Shown: positions 1 through 7,045 of the stretch, in pieces
How the letters are laid out: each line of letters begins with the position of its first letter
Position numbering within the stretch: position 1 is the stretch's first letter
From: an uncultured Wenzhouxiangella sp.
GTDB lineage: Bacteria > Pseudomonadota > Gammaproteobacteria > Xanthomonadales > Wenzhouxiangellaceae
Assembly (NCBI GenBank): GCA_913057195.1
Contig: CAJXNL010000009.1
Span: 1-64,000 of the forward strand
DNA length: 64,000 nt
Direction: 5' to 3'
Translations under genes and position numbers: made by a program
Notes under the pieces: model-generated
Databases searched by the model: none
What the model saw: only the letters and a program-made list of their open reading frames with translations
What the model was told of the DNA's origin: nothing

Positions 1-3000
1 TGCACCTGGTGGCGACGCTGCCATTGCTGCGTATGGGCCACCTGTTGCTGTTTTTCAGCCTCTGTTGAGCGCATCAACTCCACTTGACCATCAGTCTGCG
101 CGGTCTCTTCGCTGGGCAAAAACGTGTTGACGCCCACAATGGGAAGGGAGCCATCGTGCTTTCGTTGCTCGTAGTGCATTGACTCCTCTTGGATCTTGCC
201 GCGCTGATACATCGTGTCCATTGCACCCAGCACGCCTCCGCGCTCACAAATCCGCTCAAACTCTTGATAAACCGCTTCTTCGACCATGTCGGTCAACTGC
301 TCGATGACGTAACTGCCCTGCCATGGGTTTTCACAAAAGTTCAATCCCAATTCTTTGTTGATGATCATTTGAATGGCCACGGCCCGTCGAACTGAATCTT
401 CTGTGGGCGTGGTGATCGCTTCATCAAATGCGTTGGTGTGCAGACTGTTGCAATTATCAAACAACGCGTACAACGCTTGCAGGGTGGTTCGAATGTCATT
501 GAACTGAATTTCTTGGGCATGCAAGGATCGACCGGATGTTTGAATGTGGTACTTCATCATCTGCGATCGCTCGTTGGCGCCGTATCGCTCCTTCATTGCG
601 CGCGCCCAGATGCGTCGCGCGACACGACCAATCACACTGTATTCTGGATCCATGCCGTTGGAAAAGAAAAACGATAAATTCGGCGCAAAATCATCGATGG
701 CCATGCCCCGACTGAGGTAATACTCCACAATCGTTAAACCGTTGGCCAGCGTGAACGCCAGCTGAGAAATTGGATTCGCACCTGCTTCTGCGATGTGATA
801 ACCAGAAATGGACACTGAGTAAAAGTTTCTCACCTGATGATCAATAAAGTACGCCTGAATGTCTCCCATCATTCGAAGCGCAAATTCAGTCGAGAAGATA
901 CAGGTGTTTTGCGCTTGGTCCTCTTTCAATATGTCAGCCTGCACGGTGCCTCGGACCGTTGTCAGCGTCTCTTGTTTGATCGTGTCATAGGTCTGCGCGT
1001 CAATGAACTGATCGCCGGTGACACCCAGCAAACCCAGACCCAAACCATCATGATCTTGAGGCCGCTCGCCTTGATATTCAGGCGCGTTGGACCCCAGCAA
1101 CTTGTCGCGCTTGGCCATCACTTGATCCCACTGGCCAGTGGCTTTGAGATGCTTTTCGACTTGCTGATCAATGGCTGTATTCATGAACATCGCCATCAAG
1201 ATCGGTGCGGGCCCGTTGATGGTCATCGACACCGATGTCGAGGGATCACATAGATCAAACCCCGAATAGAGTTTTTTCATGTCATCAAGCGTTGCGATCG
1301 ACACGCCGGAGTTCCCCACCTTGCCGTAGATATCAGGCCGAACGTCGGGGTCTTCCCCATACAGCGTGACAGAATCAAACGCGGTGGACAGGCGCTTGGC
1401 GGGCTGGCCTCGAGAAACATAATGAAAGCGCTGATTGGTGCGCTCTGGCGTTCCTTCACCGGCAAACATTCGGATGGGGTCTTCACCGCTTCTGCGATAC
1501 GGGTAAACGCCGGCCGTATACGGATAGGCTCCGGGGAGATTCTCTTTAAACAAAAACCGCACCTGCTCGCCCCAATGCCGCGTTTGTGGCGCAGCAATTT
1601 TTGGGATGTCTAGATTTGACAGCGACTGGGTGTGGTTGTGGCCCTCAATCTCGCGCCCTCTGACGGTATAGCGATAGGTGGGTGACTCAACACTGGCCTT
1701 GCGGTCTGGCCAGGCTTTCAGCGCCTCAATCACCTCCTGAGGAATCTGGCCCAGCAATTCGTTGTGTTGATTGATCAATGCTGCCACGGCAGTCGCGTTT
1801 GATGAGCGATCGGTGGGTTCACCGGCCTCCAGGATCGAGAACGGCTCACCAGACCAGTCAGGCTTCAACAGTCGAAGGCTCTCATAAATGTGTTGCAGCT
1901 CATCTGCACGCTCGGCCCAGCGATCAATGTTGGCATCAATGGCCCGAGCGCTGTCGGCGATCTCAGATAGGTATCGAACCCGATGCGTGGGGATCAAGGG
2001 ATGACTCTTCGGCTCCACTGCCTTGGCATCCATGACCGGCTTAAAGTCACAGCGATCTGATCCAATGTTCGGGTGGCGCTGTTTAAGCCGCCGACATAAA
2101 CTCACAAACATCCAATTCAGCCCCGGGTCTTGAAACTGACTGGCGATGGTTGGGTAGACGGGAATGTCCTCGTCCGCCCAATCAAAAGCCAAGCGATTTC
2201 GACGCCACTGCTTTTTGATGTCTCTAAGCGCGTCGGGCGCACCTTGACGGTCGTACTTGTTCAACACCACCAACTCGGCGTAATCAAGCATGTCAATTTT
2301 TTCGAGCTGGCTGGCAGCACCAAACTCCGAAGTCATGACATACATTGGAAAATCAACCAAGTCCGCCACCTCAGAATCCGACTGCCCGATCCCGGCCGTT
2401 TCTAGAATCACCAAATCAAACCCGGCCGCTTTAAAACAGGCCAGGCTTTCGGCGATCACTGCCGAAGTGGCCGCGTGCTGGCGCCGCGTGGCCATGGAAC
2501 GCATGAACACCCGCTCGCTGCGCAGGCTGTTCATCCGAATCCGGTCGCCCAGCAGCGCGCCACCCGTCCGCCGTCGTGTGGGATCGACCGCCAAAACCCC
2601 AATCCGCATGTCCGGGAAACTGAGCAAAAACCGGTTGATCAGCTCATCGGTCACCGACGATTTACCCGCGCCGCCCGTCCCGGTCAAGCCCACAATGGGC
2701 ACATGCGTGGCTTGATCCGCCAATGCGATGATCTGATCCAATTGGGCCCGATCGAGCGCGTGTGTCTCAATGGCACTGAGGAGCTCGGGCAGCGTTGTCT
2801 CTTCGATGCGCTCTCCAACAGCCTCAAATCCCTTGCGATGCGCATTGGCCGCTGCCCGGGTGCGCTTGATGAGATCTTCAATCATCGCCACCAAGCCCAT
2901 CGCCATGCCGTCGTTGGGGTGATAGATGCGGTTCACGCCATGGGCTTGCAGCGCATCGATTTCTGAGGGCGTGATCGTGCCGCCGCCGCCACCAAAGACT

Positions 3001-3308
3001 TGAATATGCGCCGCACCGGCTGCCTTAAGCGAGTCGACCATATAGCTAAAAAACTCAGTATGTCCCCCTTGGTATGAGCTCACTGCGATCGCATCGGCGT
3101 CCTCACAGATGGCCGCTCGGACGATATCGGCCACGGAGCGGTTGTGGCCCAAGTGAATGACCTCGCACCCTTGGCTCTGAATGAGCCGGCGCATGACGTT
3201 GATTGCCGCATCATGCCCATCAAACAAGCTGGCAGCGGTCACCACCCGCAAAGGGGCATCCGATGGCTGGGGCTCTTGATCGCTTGGGTCTTTTAAAACG
3301 CTGCTCAT
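1..3308 (-). CDS. icmF: IcmF: fused isobutyryl-CoA mutase (partial, 3' end outside the window)
   Basis: Adenosylcobalamin-dependent acyl-CoA mutase fused to its own G-protein chaperone; the family interconverts isobutyryl-CoA and n-butyryl-CoA, and in some members isovaleryl-CoA and pivalyl-CoA. My translation from the ATG at 3308 shows the order B12-binding domain (DGHD, residues 30-33, with SSYQGG further on), MeaI-like GTPase (P-loop GTGGAGKSS near 210-218, NKYD base motif) and the catalytic barrel. Two residues that separate isobutyryl-CoA mutases from methylmalonyl-CoA mutases are present: Phe in [10 protein letters not shown], where methylmalonyl enzymes have Tyr, and Gln in [11 protein letters not shown], where they have Arg. 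About 1,102 codons are visible, so only the last few residues are missing. The gene is divergent from the ArsR regulator at 3354. It probably serves valine (isobutyryl-CoA) breakdown beside the leucine genes at 4788-9996. Confidence 0.93.
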
Positions 3309-3353
3309 GGGCCCATTTTAGCCGAGATGCGCCAAGCAAAGGAATCAGCGATA

Positions 3354-3710
3354 ATGGGGGCTATGACAAATGCCATCACACCCACACCTGCGGCCGCGTT
3401 TGAGCCCATCTCGACGACGGACATGGACGAGCACGCCGGTCAAGCGGCCAATTTTTTAAAGCTGCTGGCCAACCGCAACCGATTGATGATCCTTTGCCAC
3501 CTCTTGGAGGGTGAGCTGTCGGTCTCTGCCCTGAATGCCCACCTGCCTCTATCTCAATCGGCCCTGTCGCAACACCTGGCGGTGCTCCGCCACGCCGGGG
3601 TGGTCAGCACCCGCCGCGAACATCAGGTGATTTTCTACCGCTTGGCATCAACGGAAGTCACCGAAATCATGAGCGTGCTGTACCGCCAGTTTTGTGCGCC
3701 CGCCACATAA
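3354..3710 (+). CDS. ArsR-family sulfide/persulfide-type repressor (BigR/SqrR/YgaV-like)
   Basis: Small winged-helix DNA-binding protein of about 118 residues; the helix-turn-helix covers LSQSALSQHLAVLRHAGVV. Two cysteines stand where the BigR/SqrR/YgaV subgroup carries its redox pair: one in LMILCHLL and one in LYRQFC, 66 residues apart, the same spacing as the C42/C108 pair known from that subgroup. Members of the subgroup sense sulfide or persulfides by forming a disulfide or polysulfide bridge and then release DNA. I chose the ATG at 3354 because AAAGGA at 3338-3343 lies ten bases upstream; the ATGs at 3327 and 3363 are alternatives. The downstream DUF2892 and DsrE-like genes support a sulfur role. 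The ligand is inferred and has not been shown here. Confidence 0.85.
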   Translation: MGAMTNAITPTPAAAFEPISTTDMDEHAGQAANFLKLLANRNRLMILCHLLEGELSVSALNAHLPLSQSALSQHLAVLRHAGVVSTRREHQVIFYRLASTEVTEIMSVLYRQFCAPAT

Positions 3711-3776
3711 AAGCCCTCGCCCGGCGAGACTTGGCCAGGTCATCATGGATTGAACTGACGCGAGCCGACCATGGGC

Positions 3777-3805
3777 TTGCATTTATATTAGATATCCCTT
3801 ATGTT
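3777..3805 (+). promoter_or_regulatory. Candidate promoter with AT-rich operator for the DUF2892-DsrE pair
   Basis: TTGCAT (3777-3782) and TATGTT (3800-3805) are separated by 17 bases, a plausible sigma-70 promoter for the gene at 3892. The spacer holds the AT-rich, partly symmetric ATATTAGATAT (3785-3795). ArsR repressors of the BigR/YgaV type usually bind AT-rich imperfect palindromes over the promoter, so this is the natural operator for the regulator encoded just upstream. Promoter and operator assignments are inference from sequence only. Confidence 0.4.
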
Positions 3806-3891
3806 GGAGGCATGGACAAAGCCCCCAATCACCCATCAACGGTGGCTTTGAAACAAACCGCTCATGGAACCTTTCATAAGGAGCGAATCGA

Positions 3892-4098
3892 ATGATGAAT
3901 ATTGATCGCATGGTGATGGCGTTTGCAGGACTGGTGGTGCTCATCAGCGTGGGCCTATCGCAATGGCACAGCCCTTACTGGCTTTTTTTAACCGCCTTTG
4001 TCGGCATTAACCTGTTCCAAGCATCATTCACGGGTTTTTGTCCACTCGCCATGATTCTCAAGCGCTTCGGACAACGCCCTGGGGCTGCGTTTAAATGA
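3892..4098 (+). CDS. DUF2892 inner-membrane protein (YgaP transmembrane-domain family)
   Basis: A 68-residue protein with two hydrophobic segments (roughly residues 7-22 and 28-48) and the family's ending [13 protein letters not shown]. This domain is found alone, or fused to rhodanese as in E. coli YgaP, next to ArsR-type persulfide sensors; its exact biochemical role is unsettled. The start is supported by ATAAGGAG at 3877-3884; ATG codons at 3892 and 3895 are both possible. The stop overlaps the ATG of the next gene as ATGA at 4095-4098, so the two are translationally coupled. There is no rhodanese in this cassette. Confidence 0.85.
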
Positions 4099-4592
4099 GC
4101 GGCTCGACGCGACGTCAACACCGACTGGGACGGCGCTGGATGGCGGCCGGTGTGCTGGGGCTGTGCTCGGTATTCTCAGCCCACTTGCTCGCTCAGCAGC
4201 CGCCCAACAAAGCGCGTCTTGATCAAATTCACTCAACGCCGCAGCTGTTTGTCACCATCACCGGCGCAACACCGCAACAGCGTGCAATGCCGCTGGTGCT
4301 GTCCAATCAGGCCCTAAAGCAAGGGGCCACCGTCCGAATTTTGCTGTGTGATGACGGCGGTGAGCTGGCATTGGTCAATGACCAAGCCCGCCCGCTCGCG
4401 CCTCGCGGCGTGACGCCACAAGACTTGCTCAACAATCTGATCCAGCAAGGCGCTGTGGTGGAGGTGTGCGCGATATTTTTGCCCAACTCAGCCCACACCA
4501 AAGCCGATTTGTTGCCGGGCGTGGGCGTGGCTCAACCGCAAGACGTGGCCACATTCATGCTCGCCCCCAATACGCGGCTGTTCACCCACTAG
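4095..4592 (+). CDS. Exported DsrE/F-like family protein
   Basis: A 165-residue protein. The N-terminus is basic followed by a hydrophobic stretch ending near AHLLAQQPP (about residues 14-35), a likely Sec signal peptide. The rest resembles the DsrE/DsrF-like fold: a strand-rich opening, the segment [13 protein letters not shown], and a conserved-looking cysteine in [10 protein letters not shown]. DsrE-fold proteins in other systems carry or relay sulfur on cysteine. Its coupling to the DUF2892 gene and to a two-cysteine ArsR regulator suggests periplasmic sulfur handling, which is inference. A persulfide-carrying cysteine cannot be assigned with certainty. Confidence 0.75.
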
Positions 4593-4603
4593 CGACAAGC
4601 TGC

Positions 4604-4620
4604 GACAACCTAACGTTGTC
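4604..4620 (+). terminator. Weak hairpin after the DsrE-like gene
   Basis: GACAAC, a five-base loop CTAAC, then GTTGTC forms a 6-bp stem 11 bases after the stop codon at 4592. It is followed only by TTAACC and not by a run of T, so it is at best a weak terminator. Confidence 0.25.
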
Positions 4621-4654
4621 TTAACCGGATAAACAACGACTTACCCCGCCCCGC

Positions 4655-4691
4655 GATCAGGTGCAGTGCACGCTGATCCAGATCATATAGA
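4655..4691 (+). promoter_or_regulatory. Nested palindromes and -10 element upstream of leucine dehydrogenase
   Basis: GATCAG (4655-4660) and CTGATC (4673-4678) flank the palindrome GTGCAGTGCAC (4661-4671), making a nearly symmetric dyad of about 24 bp with a one-base bulge. A second perfect dyad, TGATCCAGATCA (4674-4685), overlaps its right arm and touches TATAGA (4686-4691), a reasonable -10 element. No good -35 hexamer lies 16-18 bases upstream, where the dyad sits. The layout suggests an operator or activator site controlling the branched-chain amino acid operon. The regulator is not identified. Confidence 0.45.
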
Positions 4692-4787
4692 ATACCCACC
4701 AAATTTCGACCCGATGCCCAGCTGCTTGGGTTGACGCCTACAACGGTGTCGTGCGCGTCCGCTGCGCGTGACCATAAGGAGTGATCT

Positions 4788-5900
4788 ATGCACTTATTCG
4801 AAACCCTGGCATCGACAGAGCACGAGCAGGTGGTGTTTTGTCACAACAAGGATGCGGGACTCAAGGCCATTATTGCAATCCACAACAGCACGTTGGGTCC
4901 AGCCCTTGGCGGGCTTCGGATGTGGCCTTACGCCAGTGAACAAGAGGCCGTTGATGATGTCTTGCGCTTATCGCGAGGCATGACCTACAAAGCCGCGGTC
5001 GCGGGTTTGAACTTAGGCGGTGGAAAGTCAGTCATCATTGGTGACCCAAGGACCGACAAATCAGAGGCCTTGTTTCGAGCGTTTGGTCGGTTCATTGATT
5101 CGATGAAAGGGCGCTACATTACCGCTGAGGACGTCGGGATCGATGTCAATGACATGGAATTTGTGTTCCAAGAGACCGATAACTGCGTGGGTGTGCATCA
5201 GGTTCACGGCGGTTCAGGTGACCCATCACCCTTCACCGCCTACGGTACTTTGCAAGGCATCCGTGCCAGTCTCCAGCACGCGTTTGGTGACGAGACCATC
5301 GGGAATTATTCGTATGCGGTACAAGGTGCCGGGCATGTGGGCTTGGAGCTGATCAAACTGCTCCGGGCAAAAAATGCCAAGGTGTTTGTCAGCGACATCA
5401 ATGAGGAGTTGGTGCAGCGCGCGGTGGATTTGGGTGCCGAGGCGGTGGGTTTGGATGAGATTTTTGATGTTCAGGCCGATGTGTTTTGCCCCACAGCACT
5501 GGGTGCCGTGATCAATGAAGACACCATCCCCAGATTCAAATTTAAGATCATCTGTGGTGCTGCGAACAATCAGCTCGCAAACGAAGATTGTGGCGATGAG
5601 CTGGAGCGACGTGGCATCTTGTATGCGCCCGATTATGCGGTCAATGCCGGTGGTTTAATGAATGTCTCGATTGAGTTTGAAGGCTACAACAGAGAACGGG
5701 CCGAGCGGATGATGCGCACCATTTACTACAGTGTCTCAAAGATTTTCAAAATCGCTAAGCGTGATGGCATCCCCACCTGGAAGGCCGCTGACCGAATGGC
5801 GGAAGAGCGCATTGCCATGATTGGCAAACTCAAACTCCCCTTCATGGGTCGGCCGCATCGTTTTCCTGGCAGAGATCGCAGCGCTGCCCATTCATCATGA
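4788..5900 (+). CDS. Leucine dehydrogenase (Leu/Val/Ile, NAD-dependent)
   Basis: Cytosolic enzyme that oxidatively deaminates leucine, valine and isoleucine to their 2-oxo acids and ammonium with NAD+. The catalytic signature is intact: K68 in GMTYKAA, K80 in GGGKSVI and D115 in ITAEDVG fall at the positions known from bacterial leucine dehydrogenase. The NAD-binding domain follows, with GAGHVG near 183-188 and an acidic residue in VSDI at the end of strand two. At 370 residues it is of family length. AAGGAG six bases before the ATG at 4788 fixes the start. The stop overlaps the next start as ATGA (5897-5900). It is the first gene of the catabolic operon. Confidence 0.95.
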   Translation: MHLFETLASTEHEQVVFCHNKDAGLKAIIAIHNSTLGPALGGLRMWPYASEQEAVDDVLRLSRGMTYKAAVAGLNLGGGKSVIIGDPRTDKSEALFRAFGRFIDSMKGRYITAEDVGIDVNDMEFVFQETDNCVGVHQVHGGSGDPSPFTAYGTLQGIRASLQHAFGDETIGNYSYAVQGAGHVGLELIKLLRAKNAKVFVSDINEELVQRAVDLGAEAVGLDEIFDVQADVFCPTALGAVINEDTIPRFKFKIICGAANNQLANEDCGDELERRGILYAPDYAVNAGGLMNVSIEFEGYNRERAERMMRTIYYSVSKIFKIAKRDGIPTWKAADRMAEERIAMIGKLKLPFMGRPHRFPGRDRSAAHSS

Positions 5901-7045
5901 AGTCAGCCGATGACATCAATATGCTCCGCGAAAGTGTGCGGCGGTTTGCTGAAGAAACCATTGCGCCCATGGCCGAGGACATTGACCGTTCGAACGAATT
6001 CCCTCAATCGCTGTGGCAACAACTGGGAGCACTCGGGTTACTTGGCATCACGGTACCCGAGGAGTTTGGTGGTGCCGGTTTGGGTTACTGGGCTCACTTG
6101 GTCGCCATGGAAGAAATCTCACGAGCGTCGGCGTCGGTTGGCTTGTCTTATGGTGCCCACTCCAACCTGTGTGTCGACAACCTATGCCGCAACGCTACGC
6201 CAGCTCAGCGCGAGAAATACCTCCCCAAGCTGATCAGCGGCGAGTGGCAGGGCGCACTGGCCATGTCAGAGCCTGGTGCAGGCTCCGATGTGGTCGGCTC
6301 AATGGCCTGCAAAGCGACCCTCGAGGGCGATGTGTGGGTGGCCAATGGTTCAAAAATGTGGATTACAAATGGCCCAGAGTGCGATGTGGCGATTGTCTAT
6401 ATGCGCACGGCGCCAGCCGAGACAGGCTCTCGATCCATCACCGCCTTCATTGTTGAAGATGGCATGCCCGGTTTTTCTAAAGCACAAAAACTTGACAAGC
6501 TTGGCATGCGCGGCTCGAACACGTGCGAGCTCGTCTTTGATCGTTGTGAAATCCCACAAGACAACGTCTTGGGTGAAGTCAACCAAGGCGTGGCGGTGAT
6601 GATGACAGGCCTCAATTCAGAAAGACTGGTGCTCAGTGGTGGGCCAATTGGCATTATGCGTGCTGCCTTGGATTTAATGCTCCCGTATGTCAAACAGCGC
6701 CAGCAATTTGGTAAACCGCTGGGTCAGATGGGCGTGATTCAAGCGAAAATTGCCGATGCCTACACTGCGCTGGCTTCAAGCCAGGGTTTGGCATACCAAA
6801 CCGCTCAAGACTACGATCAAGGCCAGCAGTCCCGAATCGACGCAGCGGCGTGCTTGCTGCATGCCTCGACTTCAGCGGTGCAAGTGGCCTTGGAAGCCAT
6901 CCAAGCCCTTGGAGGCAACGGCTACATCAATGAATATCCGGCGGGGCGCCTTTTAAGAGACGCCAAGCTTTATGATATTGGGGCCGGAACCAATGAAATT
7001 CGTCGCATGTTAATTGGGCGAGAATTGATCGATACCATCGAATGA
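5897..7045 (+). CDS. liuA: Isovaleryl-CoA dehydrogenase
   Basis: FAD-dependent acyl-CoA dehydrogenase of 382 residues that oxidises isovaleryl-CoA to 3-methylcrotonyl-CoA in leucine breakdown, passing electrons to ETF. Family signatures are clear: AMSEPGAGSD (122-131), the WITNG motif (155-159) and QALGGNGYINEYPAGRLLRD near the C-terminus. The catalytic base is E242 in LNSERLVLSGGP, the position used by isovaleryl-CoA dehydrogenases rather than the C-terminal Glu of straight-chain enzymes, which supports the substrate call. It is coupled to leucine dehydrogenase by a 4-base overlap, and etfAB lies at 16341-18028. The genes for the next steps, methylcrotonyl-CoA carboxylase and hydratase, do not follow. 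Confidence 0.93.
   Translation: MKSADDINMLRESVRRFAEETIAPMAEDIDRSNEFPQSLWQQLGALGLLGITVPEEFGGAGLGYWAHLVAMEEISRASASVGLSYGAHSNLCVDNLCRNATPAQREKYLPKLISGEWQGALAMSEPGAGSDVVGSMACKATLEGDVWVANGSKMWITNGPECDVAIVYMRTAPAETGSRSITAFIVEDGMPGFSKAQKLDKLGMRGSNTCELVFDRCEIPQDNVLGEVNQGVAVMMTGLNSERLVLSGGPIGIMRAALDLMLPYVKQRQQFGKPLGQMGVIQAKIADAYTALASSQGLAYQTAQDYDQGQQSRIDAAACLLHASTSAVQVALEAIQALGGNGYINEYPAGRLLRDAKLYDIGAGTNEIRRMLIGRELIDTIE

Follow-up and report, generated by a model that had tools for sequence, protein, structure and literature searches.

A 64,000-nucleotide stretch of DNA from an uncultured Wenzhouxiangella sp. (positions 1 to 64,000 of contig CAJXNL010000009.1, which is contig 9 of a 1.78-Mb genome that is 98.9% complete), hereafter the window, harbours a set of three genes encoding an ArsR-family regulator with two cysteines, a small DUF2892 membrane protein and a DsrE-like protein predicted to be exported. 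This set is likely to form a small reactive-sulfur response unit, in which an ArsR-controlled DUF2892-DsrE pair would handle periplasmic sulfane sulfur; DNA binding, the inducer and the sulfur chemistry are the parts that we infer. The two-cysteine ArsR very probably controls both the DUF2892 and the exported DsrE-like gene, and the unit joins a known type of sensor to an unusual, recurring and uncharacterised periplasmic effector. The initial annotation had named the same three genes, and open reading frames (ORFs), family searches and a fold comparison confirm each of them at its coordinates (Table 1). The ArsR gene lies next to icmF (minus strand, to 3308) and is separated by a 181-bp, promoter-bearing gap from the DUF2892 gene, whose stop codon overlaps the start of the DsrE-like gene as ATGA, making translational coupling of the two likely.

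A two-cysteine regulator of the reactive-sulfur-sensing group

The regulator has an ArsR-type winged helix, matching Pfam HTH_5 (E=1.3e-12) and NCBIfam HTH_metalloreg (89 bits, cut-off 55). Against the NCBIfam BigR equivalog NF040642 it scores 100.3 bits, under the curated cut-off of 155, and it is therefore treated as a member of the group that contains BigR and not as BigR itself. It aligns with the PDB structures of HlyU (E=3e-26), BigR and SqrR, and its Cys45 and Cys111 align with the cysteines of all three, corresponding to Cys41 and Cys107 of SqrR. Both sensor cysteines are kept in all 41 ArsR rows compared (window and related loci) and in the four references, and the recognition helix LSQSALSQHLA is common to most rows and to HlyU. 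Judged by these sequence features, the protein belongs to the SqrR/BigR/YgaV/HlyU group, and release of DNA by persulfide is predicted by analogy. The cysteines are 66 residues apart in the window ArsR and in 39 of the 41 rows, and 67 apart in two; the identical 66-residue spacing previously claimed for the whole group holds for BigR, SqrR and HlyU but not for Escherichia coli YgaV, where C31 and C98 are 67 apart.

In the ArsR tree, the window protein falls into starred clade A (22 members, support 97/98), which is mostly icmF-linked, while other genus mates form starred clade B (8 members, 99/90), seven of which adjoin DUF2892 in the stretch covered. The genome of the window has one regulator of this kind, the sole other match being 35% identical and lying in a 344-residue frame. 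Because it is the only ArsR of this type in the genome and its helix is near-identical, the clade-A regulator is predicted to recognise the operator described below, a conclusion argued by elimination.

A conserved putative operator and the genes behind it

The two promoter boxes ahead of DUF2892 are separated by a 17-bp spacer (Table 1). A standard promoter scan missed this promoter (3777-3805), and conservation is the evidence for it. In 23 of 23 genus loci the region upstream of DUF2892 carries a match to the pattern TATATTAG-N6-CTTATATT (12-16 of 16 positions), mostly directly after a TTGACT-like -35 box and spanning the -10 box; mononucleotide-shuffled DUF2892 upstream regions reach a mean of 8.9 and a maximum of 12 (1150 shuffles). 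The window site scores 15/16, which none of 1000 dinucleotide shuffles of the promoter region attained. A 15-base version of the pattern has a single match without mismatches in the window, where 0.19 would be expected at up to three mismatches, and this site is also the best in the whole genome and its one match without mismatches. At three mismatches the same genome yields 7 sites against 13 for the control, which is no enrichment, and only 0- and 2-mismatch sites from it were used. The operator-like element formerly placed at 3783-3799 is thus real and beyond chance, as the 23 loci attest, but its extent had to be revised, since it runs through the -10 box.

Among loci from other families of the order, the site close to ArsR or DUF2892 stands out clearly in five (L127, L132 and L133, each reached by 0/1000 shuffles; L128 and L137, 2/1000) and is weak or absent in five others (L129, L131, L138, L136 and L130, with 22, 43, 69, 166 and 333 of 1000 shuffles). 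Likeness to the E. coli ygaV promoter (12/16, reached by 119/1000 shuffles) and to the hlyA operator of HlyU (10/16, 379/1000) is not significant and is not claimed.

Across 29 genomes of the genus (G000-G028), searched at up to two mismatches with the reversed pattern as control, 33 operator sites were found against 4 for the control, and 9 of the genomes have none. The genes 3′ of these sites encode DUF2892 (18 sites), SQR-like flavoproteins (4; G011, G017, G024, G026), SLAC1/TDT channels (3; G014, G018, G019), RND efflux adaptors (3; G002, G013, G018, named by eye from translations), clade-B ArsR (2) and cytochrome bd subunit I, cydA (1; G003), which together account for 31 sites. At L177, L178 and L179, from three species, the operator is part of the promoters of RND efflux adaptor genes. 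The other two precede an ArsC/Spx-like gene (G024) and a protein kinase gene (G026), both named from translations and with no nameable sulfur link. The SQR-like proteins are so called because they score 97-109 bits against the NCBIfam type III SQR model, whose cut-off is 525. With the operator standing before SQR-like, bd oxidase and channel genes, the sites look like a sulfide-type regulon in Wenzhouxiangella, and the argument is independent of the ArsR cysteines.

The genome of the window has just one further site with no more than two mismatches. It sits where a SLAC1 homologue begins (L140, about 555-1503, minus strand; G000:C11:61466), and as the right operator arm contains the ATG of that gene, the case is weaker. 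Since the SLAC1 homologues of G014, G018 and G019 also carry the operator, this suggests that the protein may be a sulfite or hydrosulfide channel of the sulfide regulon. The same genome encodes an SQR-family homologue at another locus, without the operator. The statement that the usual rhodanese, dioxygenase or SQR is lacking therefore holds for the window locus and needs qualifying for the genome.

The initial annotation had called the cassette sulfide- or persulfide-responsive, guessing from the two cysteines. The SQR-like, bd-oxidase, anion-channel and RND genes behind the same operator speak for this, as do the sulfur genes near the DsrE family described below, the response itself being what we infer. 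A regulator sensing peroxide, metals or organotin, with DUF2892-DsrE as a general envelope-stress or metal-handling pair, would accommodate the earlier description of ygaVP as derepressed by tributyltin (PMC9774250, in excerpt), the many stimuli to which ArsR proteins respond, and the SLAC1/TDT and RND genes, which are not sulfur-specific. It fits poorly with an operator borne by SQR-like and cydA genes and with persulfide dioxygenase, YeeE and rhodanese genes as neighbours of the DsrE family; moreover, according to the accessible part of PMC10509353, persulfide but not H2O2 reacts with HlyU, which shares the helix and the cysteine pair. We regard an inducer other than sulfide as quite unlikely.

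A predicted exported two-cysteine protein with a DsrE fold

The DUF2892 protein has a YgaP-type transmembrane domain (PF11127, E=1.9e-13, 50.8 bits, gathering cut-off 25.3) and aligns with the C-terminal portion of YgaP from E. coli, the fused rhodanese domain of which is absent from this 68-residue protein. The product of the third gene scores 17.7 bits against PF02635, under the gathering cut-off of 22.7. Searches of the PDB returned chance matches only with the single sequence and YchN at E=0.13 with a profile; the assignment was settled by the fold comparison. The AlphaFold2 model, with block-mean pLDDT of 89-98 over residues 51-165, matches YchN (Z 16.2, 2.4 Å over 113 residues), SSO1126 (15.4), TusD (14.1) and DsrE (13.8); the top ten rows have Z 12.5-16.2 over 104-117 residues, and the next, unrelated row has 6.5. 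The structure prediction that had been proposed as a check thus gives a modelled DsrE fold. The N-terminus carries a hydrophobic, signal-like segment, seen by eye, similar segments recur in homologues, and the protein is predicted from it to be exported. The earlier description as a secreted DsrE-fold protein is supported by this combination.

Two cysteines, Cys85 and Cys125, are conserved across phyla and invariant in 19 of 19 aligned homologues, in 58 of 58 homologues from a GTDB genome scan and in 8 of 8 plasmid homologues read. The 58 are those of 62 rows that remain when L058, L062, L112 and L118 are left out, and the plasmid set is 8 of 15; Cys125 was part of one of the two GTDB search patterns, so its invariance in the 58 is partly selected, which does not apply to the sets of 19 and 8. 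In the hidden Markov model (HMM) alignment, Cys125 aligns with a YchN cysteine, at what we take to be the position of the active cysteine in DsrE and TusD. A literature search outside which most subscription papers lay found no described exported DsrE of this kind, and the family is uncharacterised, its function being without a published test as far as we found.

Distribution of the pair and its neighbours

By tblastn, the DsrE-like protein is present in 22 of 61 relatives, in 3 of 25 genera. The GTDB scan gave 61 loci in Wenzhouxiangellaceae, Ectothiorhodospiraceae, Halomonas, Rhodospirillales, Desulfobulbus, Gemmatimonadetes, Rhodothermia and others, and 15 plasmid records (Paracoccus, Tistrella, Skermanella, Salinibacter and others) contain a homologue; no relative was found on viral contigs. 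A Salinibacter ruber plasmid carries, a few genes from the first, another DsrE-family gene (L120 2410-2892), which is divergent and encodes a signal-like N-terminus.

The neighbourhood search that had been suggested was run on 69 loci (61 + 8) with limited marker queries. A same-strand DUF2892 gene adjoins DsrE in 23 of the 69. Leucine dehydrogenase synteny is seen in 16, and among the other 53, 28 have at least one marker gene (persulfide dioxygenase, YeeE/YedE, SQR/rhodanese, DUF2892, peroxiredoxin or cydAB); three of the 28 are from Wenzhouxiangella (L069, L096, L112). As a control, which is a weak one, none of five window chunks had a marker. In examples named by annotation, one Paracoccus sediminicola stretch combines a phosphatase-family/NAD(P)/FAD oxidoreductase (matching the SQR query), bacterioferritin, an MBL hydrolase, a YeeE pair, DUF2892, Crp, Rrf2, peroxiredoxin, DsrE and cydAB; the Roseicitreum locus has an MBL hydrolase, peroxiredoxin, cydAB and DsrE, and in Skermanella a rhodanese gene is followed by DsrE.

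In the window, the DsrE-like gene is followed by genes for leucine dehydrogenase (4788-5900) and an acyl-CoA dehydrogenase (5897-7045), probably isovaleryl-CoA dehydrogenase; these names and that of icmF were read from translations, with no family search behind them. Most of the genus shares the arrangement (window 1-7045; L022-L039), with DsrE, then leucine and isovaleryl-CoA-dehydrogenase-like genes, and a clade-A ArsR beside icmF. The DsrE-like protein could accordingly belong to leucine catabolism, its proximity to ArsR being accidental synteny: leucine dehydrogenase lies 3′ of DsrE in 18 of 20 mapped loci, the window among them, and no more than 300 bp away in 14 (the exceptions to the 18 are L034, at a contig end, and L040), and several DsrE loci have no adjoining DUF2892 and ArsR. 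Yet an operator-like promoter directly precedes some of the DsrE genes that lack DUF2892 (L030, 12/16; L038, 13/16; others 9-12, weak), and no leucine dehydrogenase turned up next to family members outside Wenzhouxiangellaceae, which makes a leucine-catabolic role highly improbable.

In Ectothiorhodospiraceae, the pair appears to be controlled by a different regulator. A TGAC-N4-TCAC palindrome, often GTGACTTAGTCAC, stands 84-108 bp before DUF2892 in nine of ten Ectothiorhodospiraceae-type loci tested (L093, L095, L100, L101, L104, L106, L108, L110, L114), seven of which also have a divergent CRP/Fnr-family gene; the tenth, L099, has no such palindrome upstream of DsrE. This CRP-like palindrome together with the divergent gene points to another sensor. 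It also bears on the idea that the pair is a signal path, with exported DsrE capturing sulfane sulfur from outside and handing it, together with the membrane protein, to the cytoplasmic ArsR, much as SoxT1B serves SoxR in Hyphomicrobium. ArsR and DUF2892 are indeed neighbours across several families of the order, but no ArsR was found beside the pair behind the CRP-type palindrome, DsrE also occurs with persulfide dioxygenase without ArsR, and the position of the pair, behind the operator, is the one expected of an output. We consider the signal path unlikely.

We favour the pair as an output, and tentatively go further. It is conceivable, at somewhat less than even chance, that DUF2892 and the two-cysteine exported DsrE constitute a portable periplasmic sulfane-sulfur module of the sulfide response, undescribed so far, which would have become linked to unrelated sensors on at least two occasions (to ArsR via TATATTAG-N6-CTTATATT in Wenzhouxiangella and to CRP/Fnr via TGAC-N4-TCAC in Ectothiorhodospiraceae) and would move persulfide sulfur along the inner membrane or across it.

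Some neighbouring genes were seen in passing. In L025, L027 and L028 the clade-B ArsR gene is preceded by a gene for a DUF1302-like outer-membrane protein, and in L028 also by one for a LolA-like lipoprotein-sorting protein (by eye); these may form an efflux operon connected with this regulator. In L032, L033, L034, L036, L052 and L053 an opposite-strand HerA-like ATPase gene lies between ArsR and DUF2892, and the DUF2892 operator is still present.

Proposed mechanism and known systems

In relatives of the regulator, repression and its relief when sulfur bridges the two cysteines are described in the accessible parts of PMC5823870, PMC9774250, PMC10509353 and PMC12423496. By homology with SqrR, BigR, YgaV and HlyU, the reduced ArsR dimer would occupy the conserved operator and block the DUF2892-dsrE promoter, and sulfide-derived persulfides or polysulfides would bridge Cys45 and Cys111, so that the repressor leaves the DNA and DUF2892 and DsrE are produced together. 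The exported DsrE would take up sulfane sulfur, most likely on Cys125, with Cys85 as partner or resolving thiol, and DUF2892, whose E. coli counterpart is fused to a rhodanese in YgaP, would be its likely inner-membrane partner; neither of these last steps has a direct precedent. The net effect would be the buffering or relaying of periplasmic persulfide sulfur under sulfide stress, alongside those genes for SQR-like proteins, channels and oxidases that stand behind the same operator in sister species.

The closest parallel is E. coli ygaVP, where a two-cysteine ArsR repressor gene also lies directly 5′ of a gene with the YgaP-type membrane domain and the YgaV footprint lies on the promoter boxes (PMC9774250, in excerpt); unlike ygaVP, the window locus has no rhodanese, an exported DsrE follows, and the repressor gene lacks a site of its own. 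BigR operons (Xylella/Agrobacterium bigR-blh-TauE; Acinetobacter yeeE-yedE-pdo2) share the cysteine spacing and repression at the -10 box (excerpts of PMC5823870 and PMC7315123), which the site here covers, whereas the window locus has no dioxygenase, rhodanese or transporter and its regulator falls below the BigR cut-off. SqrR of Rhodobacter capsulatus and SoxR/sHdrR of Hyphomicrobium are of the same sensor group but have other targets and another operator (ATTC-N8-GAAT for SqrR, as cited in the accessible part of PMC9774250). Genes affected by SqrR include SQR, rhodanese and a candidate peroxiredoxin (PMC9995734, in part), and among the targets given for related regulators are RND pumps (PMC12423496, in part). 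The DsrE-fold sulfur carriers (DsrE/TusD/YchN and the DsrE-like protein of the YTD cluster, which keeps Cys78 according to an excerpt of PMC13047784) share the fold and a cysteine at the YchN position, but the window protein is predicted to be exported, is encoded by a single gene and has a second invariant cysteine, and its neighbours are DUF2892 and dehydrogenase genes, with no adjacent DsrF/H or TusB/C partner recognised.

Several observations weigh against the proposed unit. The window ArsR has no operator in its own upstream region (8/16 positions) and belongs to the icmF-tied clade, while in seven relatives' loci it is a clade-B regulator that stands by DUF2892. No sulfur marker was found in 25 of the 53 non-syntenic DsrE loci, and those of Salinivibrio and Aliarcobacter lie among unrelated genes. 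The leucine-catabolism synteny has no account in the reading that we favour.

Table 1. Coordinates of the regulator, promoter, operator and effector genes in the window.
Feature	Position	Strand	Evidence
ArsR-family repressor, SqrR/BigR/YgaV/HlyU-type, 115 aa	3363-3710	+	ORF (ATG 3363), NCBIfam, PDB matches
Predicted sensor Cys45 codon, ArsR	3495-3497	+	Sequence; cysteine conservation
Predicted sensor Cys111 codon, ArsR	3693-3695	+	Sequence; cysteine conservation
-35 box TTGCAT	3777-3782	+	Sequence; most relatives have TTGACT or a similar box there
Putative operator TATATTAGATATCCCTTATGTT, imperfect inverted repeat between and over the promoter boxes	3784-3805	+	Conservation, pattern searches, shuffles
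-10 box TATGTT, within right operator arm	3800-3805	+	Sequence; aligned with TTATATT of relatives
DUF2892/YgaP-type membrane protein, 68 aa, FCPL motif	3892-4098	+	Pfam PF11127; E. coli YgaP alignment
DsrE-fold protein, predicted to be exported, 165 aa	4095-4592	+	ORF, homologues, AlphaFold2 model, fold comparison
Signal-peptide-like N-terminus, about residues 1-33, boundary approximate	4095-4193	+	By eye; similar hydrophobic starts in homologues
Invariant Cys85 codon (LLC motif)	4347-4349	+	Homologue alignments
Invariant Cys125 codon (VCAIFLPN motif)	4467-4469	+	Homologue alignments; YchN cysteine in HMM alignment

Outlook

The suggestion of an unusual periplasmic sulfur-handling module emerges stronger than first stated, the effector being a recurring, exported pair with a predicted periplasmic sulfur role. 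The sensors and cytoplasmic enzymes of bacterial sulfide signalling are known, the fate of periplasmic persulfide sulfur much less so, and a conserved exported two-cysteine DsrE family, which in several phyla often accompanies DUF2892 or sulfide genes, supplies a definite candidate for experiments. YgaP-type membrane domains gain a recurrent partner, and the operator allows a sulfide-type regulon to be read in Wenzhouxiangella genomes, including that of W. limi C33 (L068).
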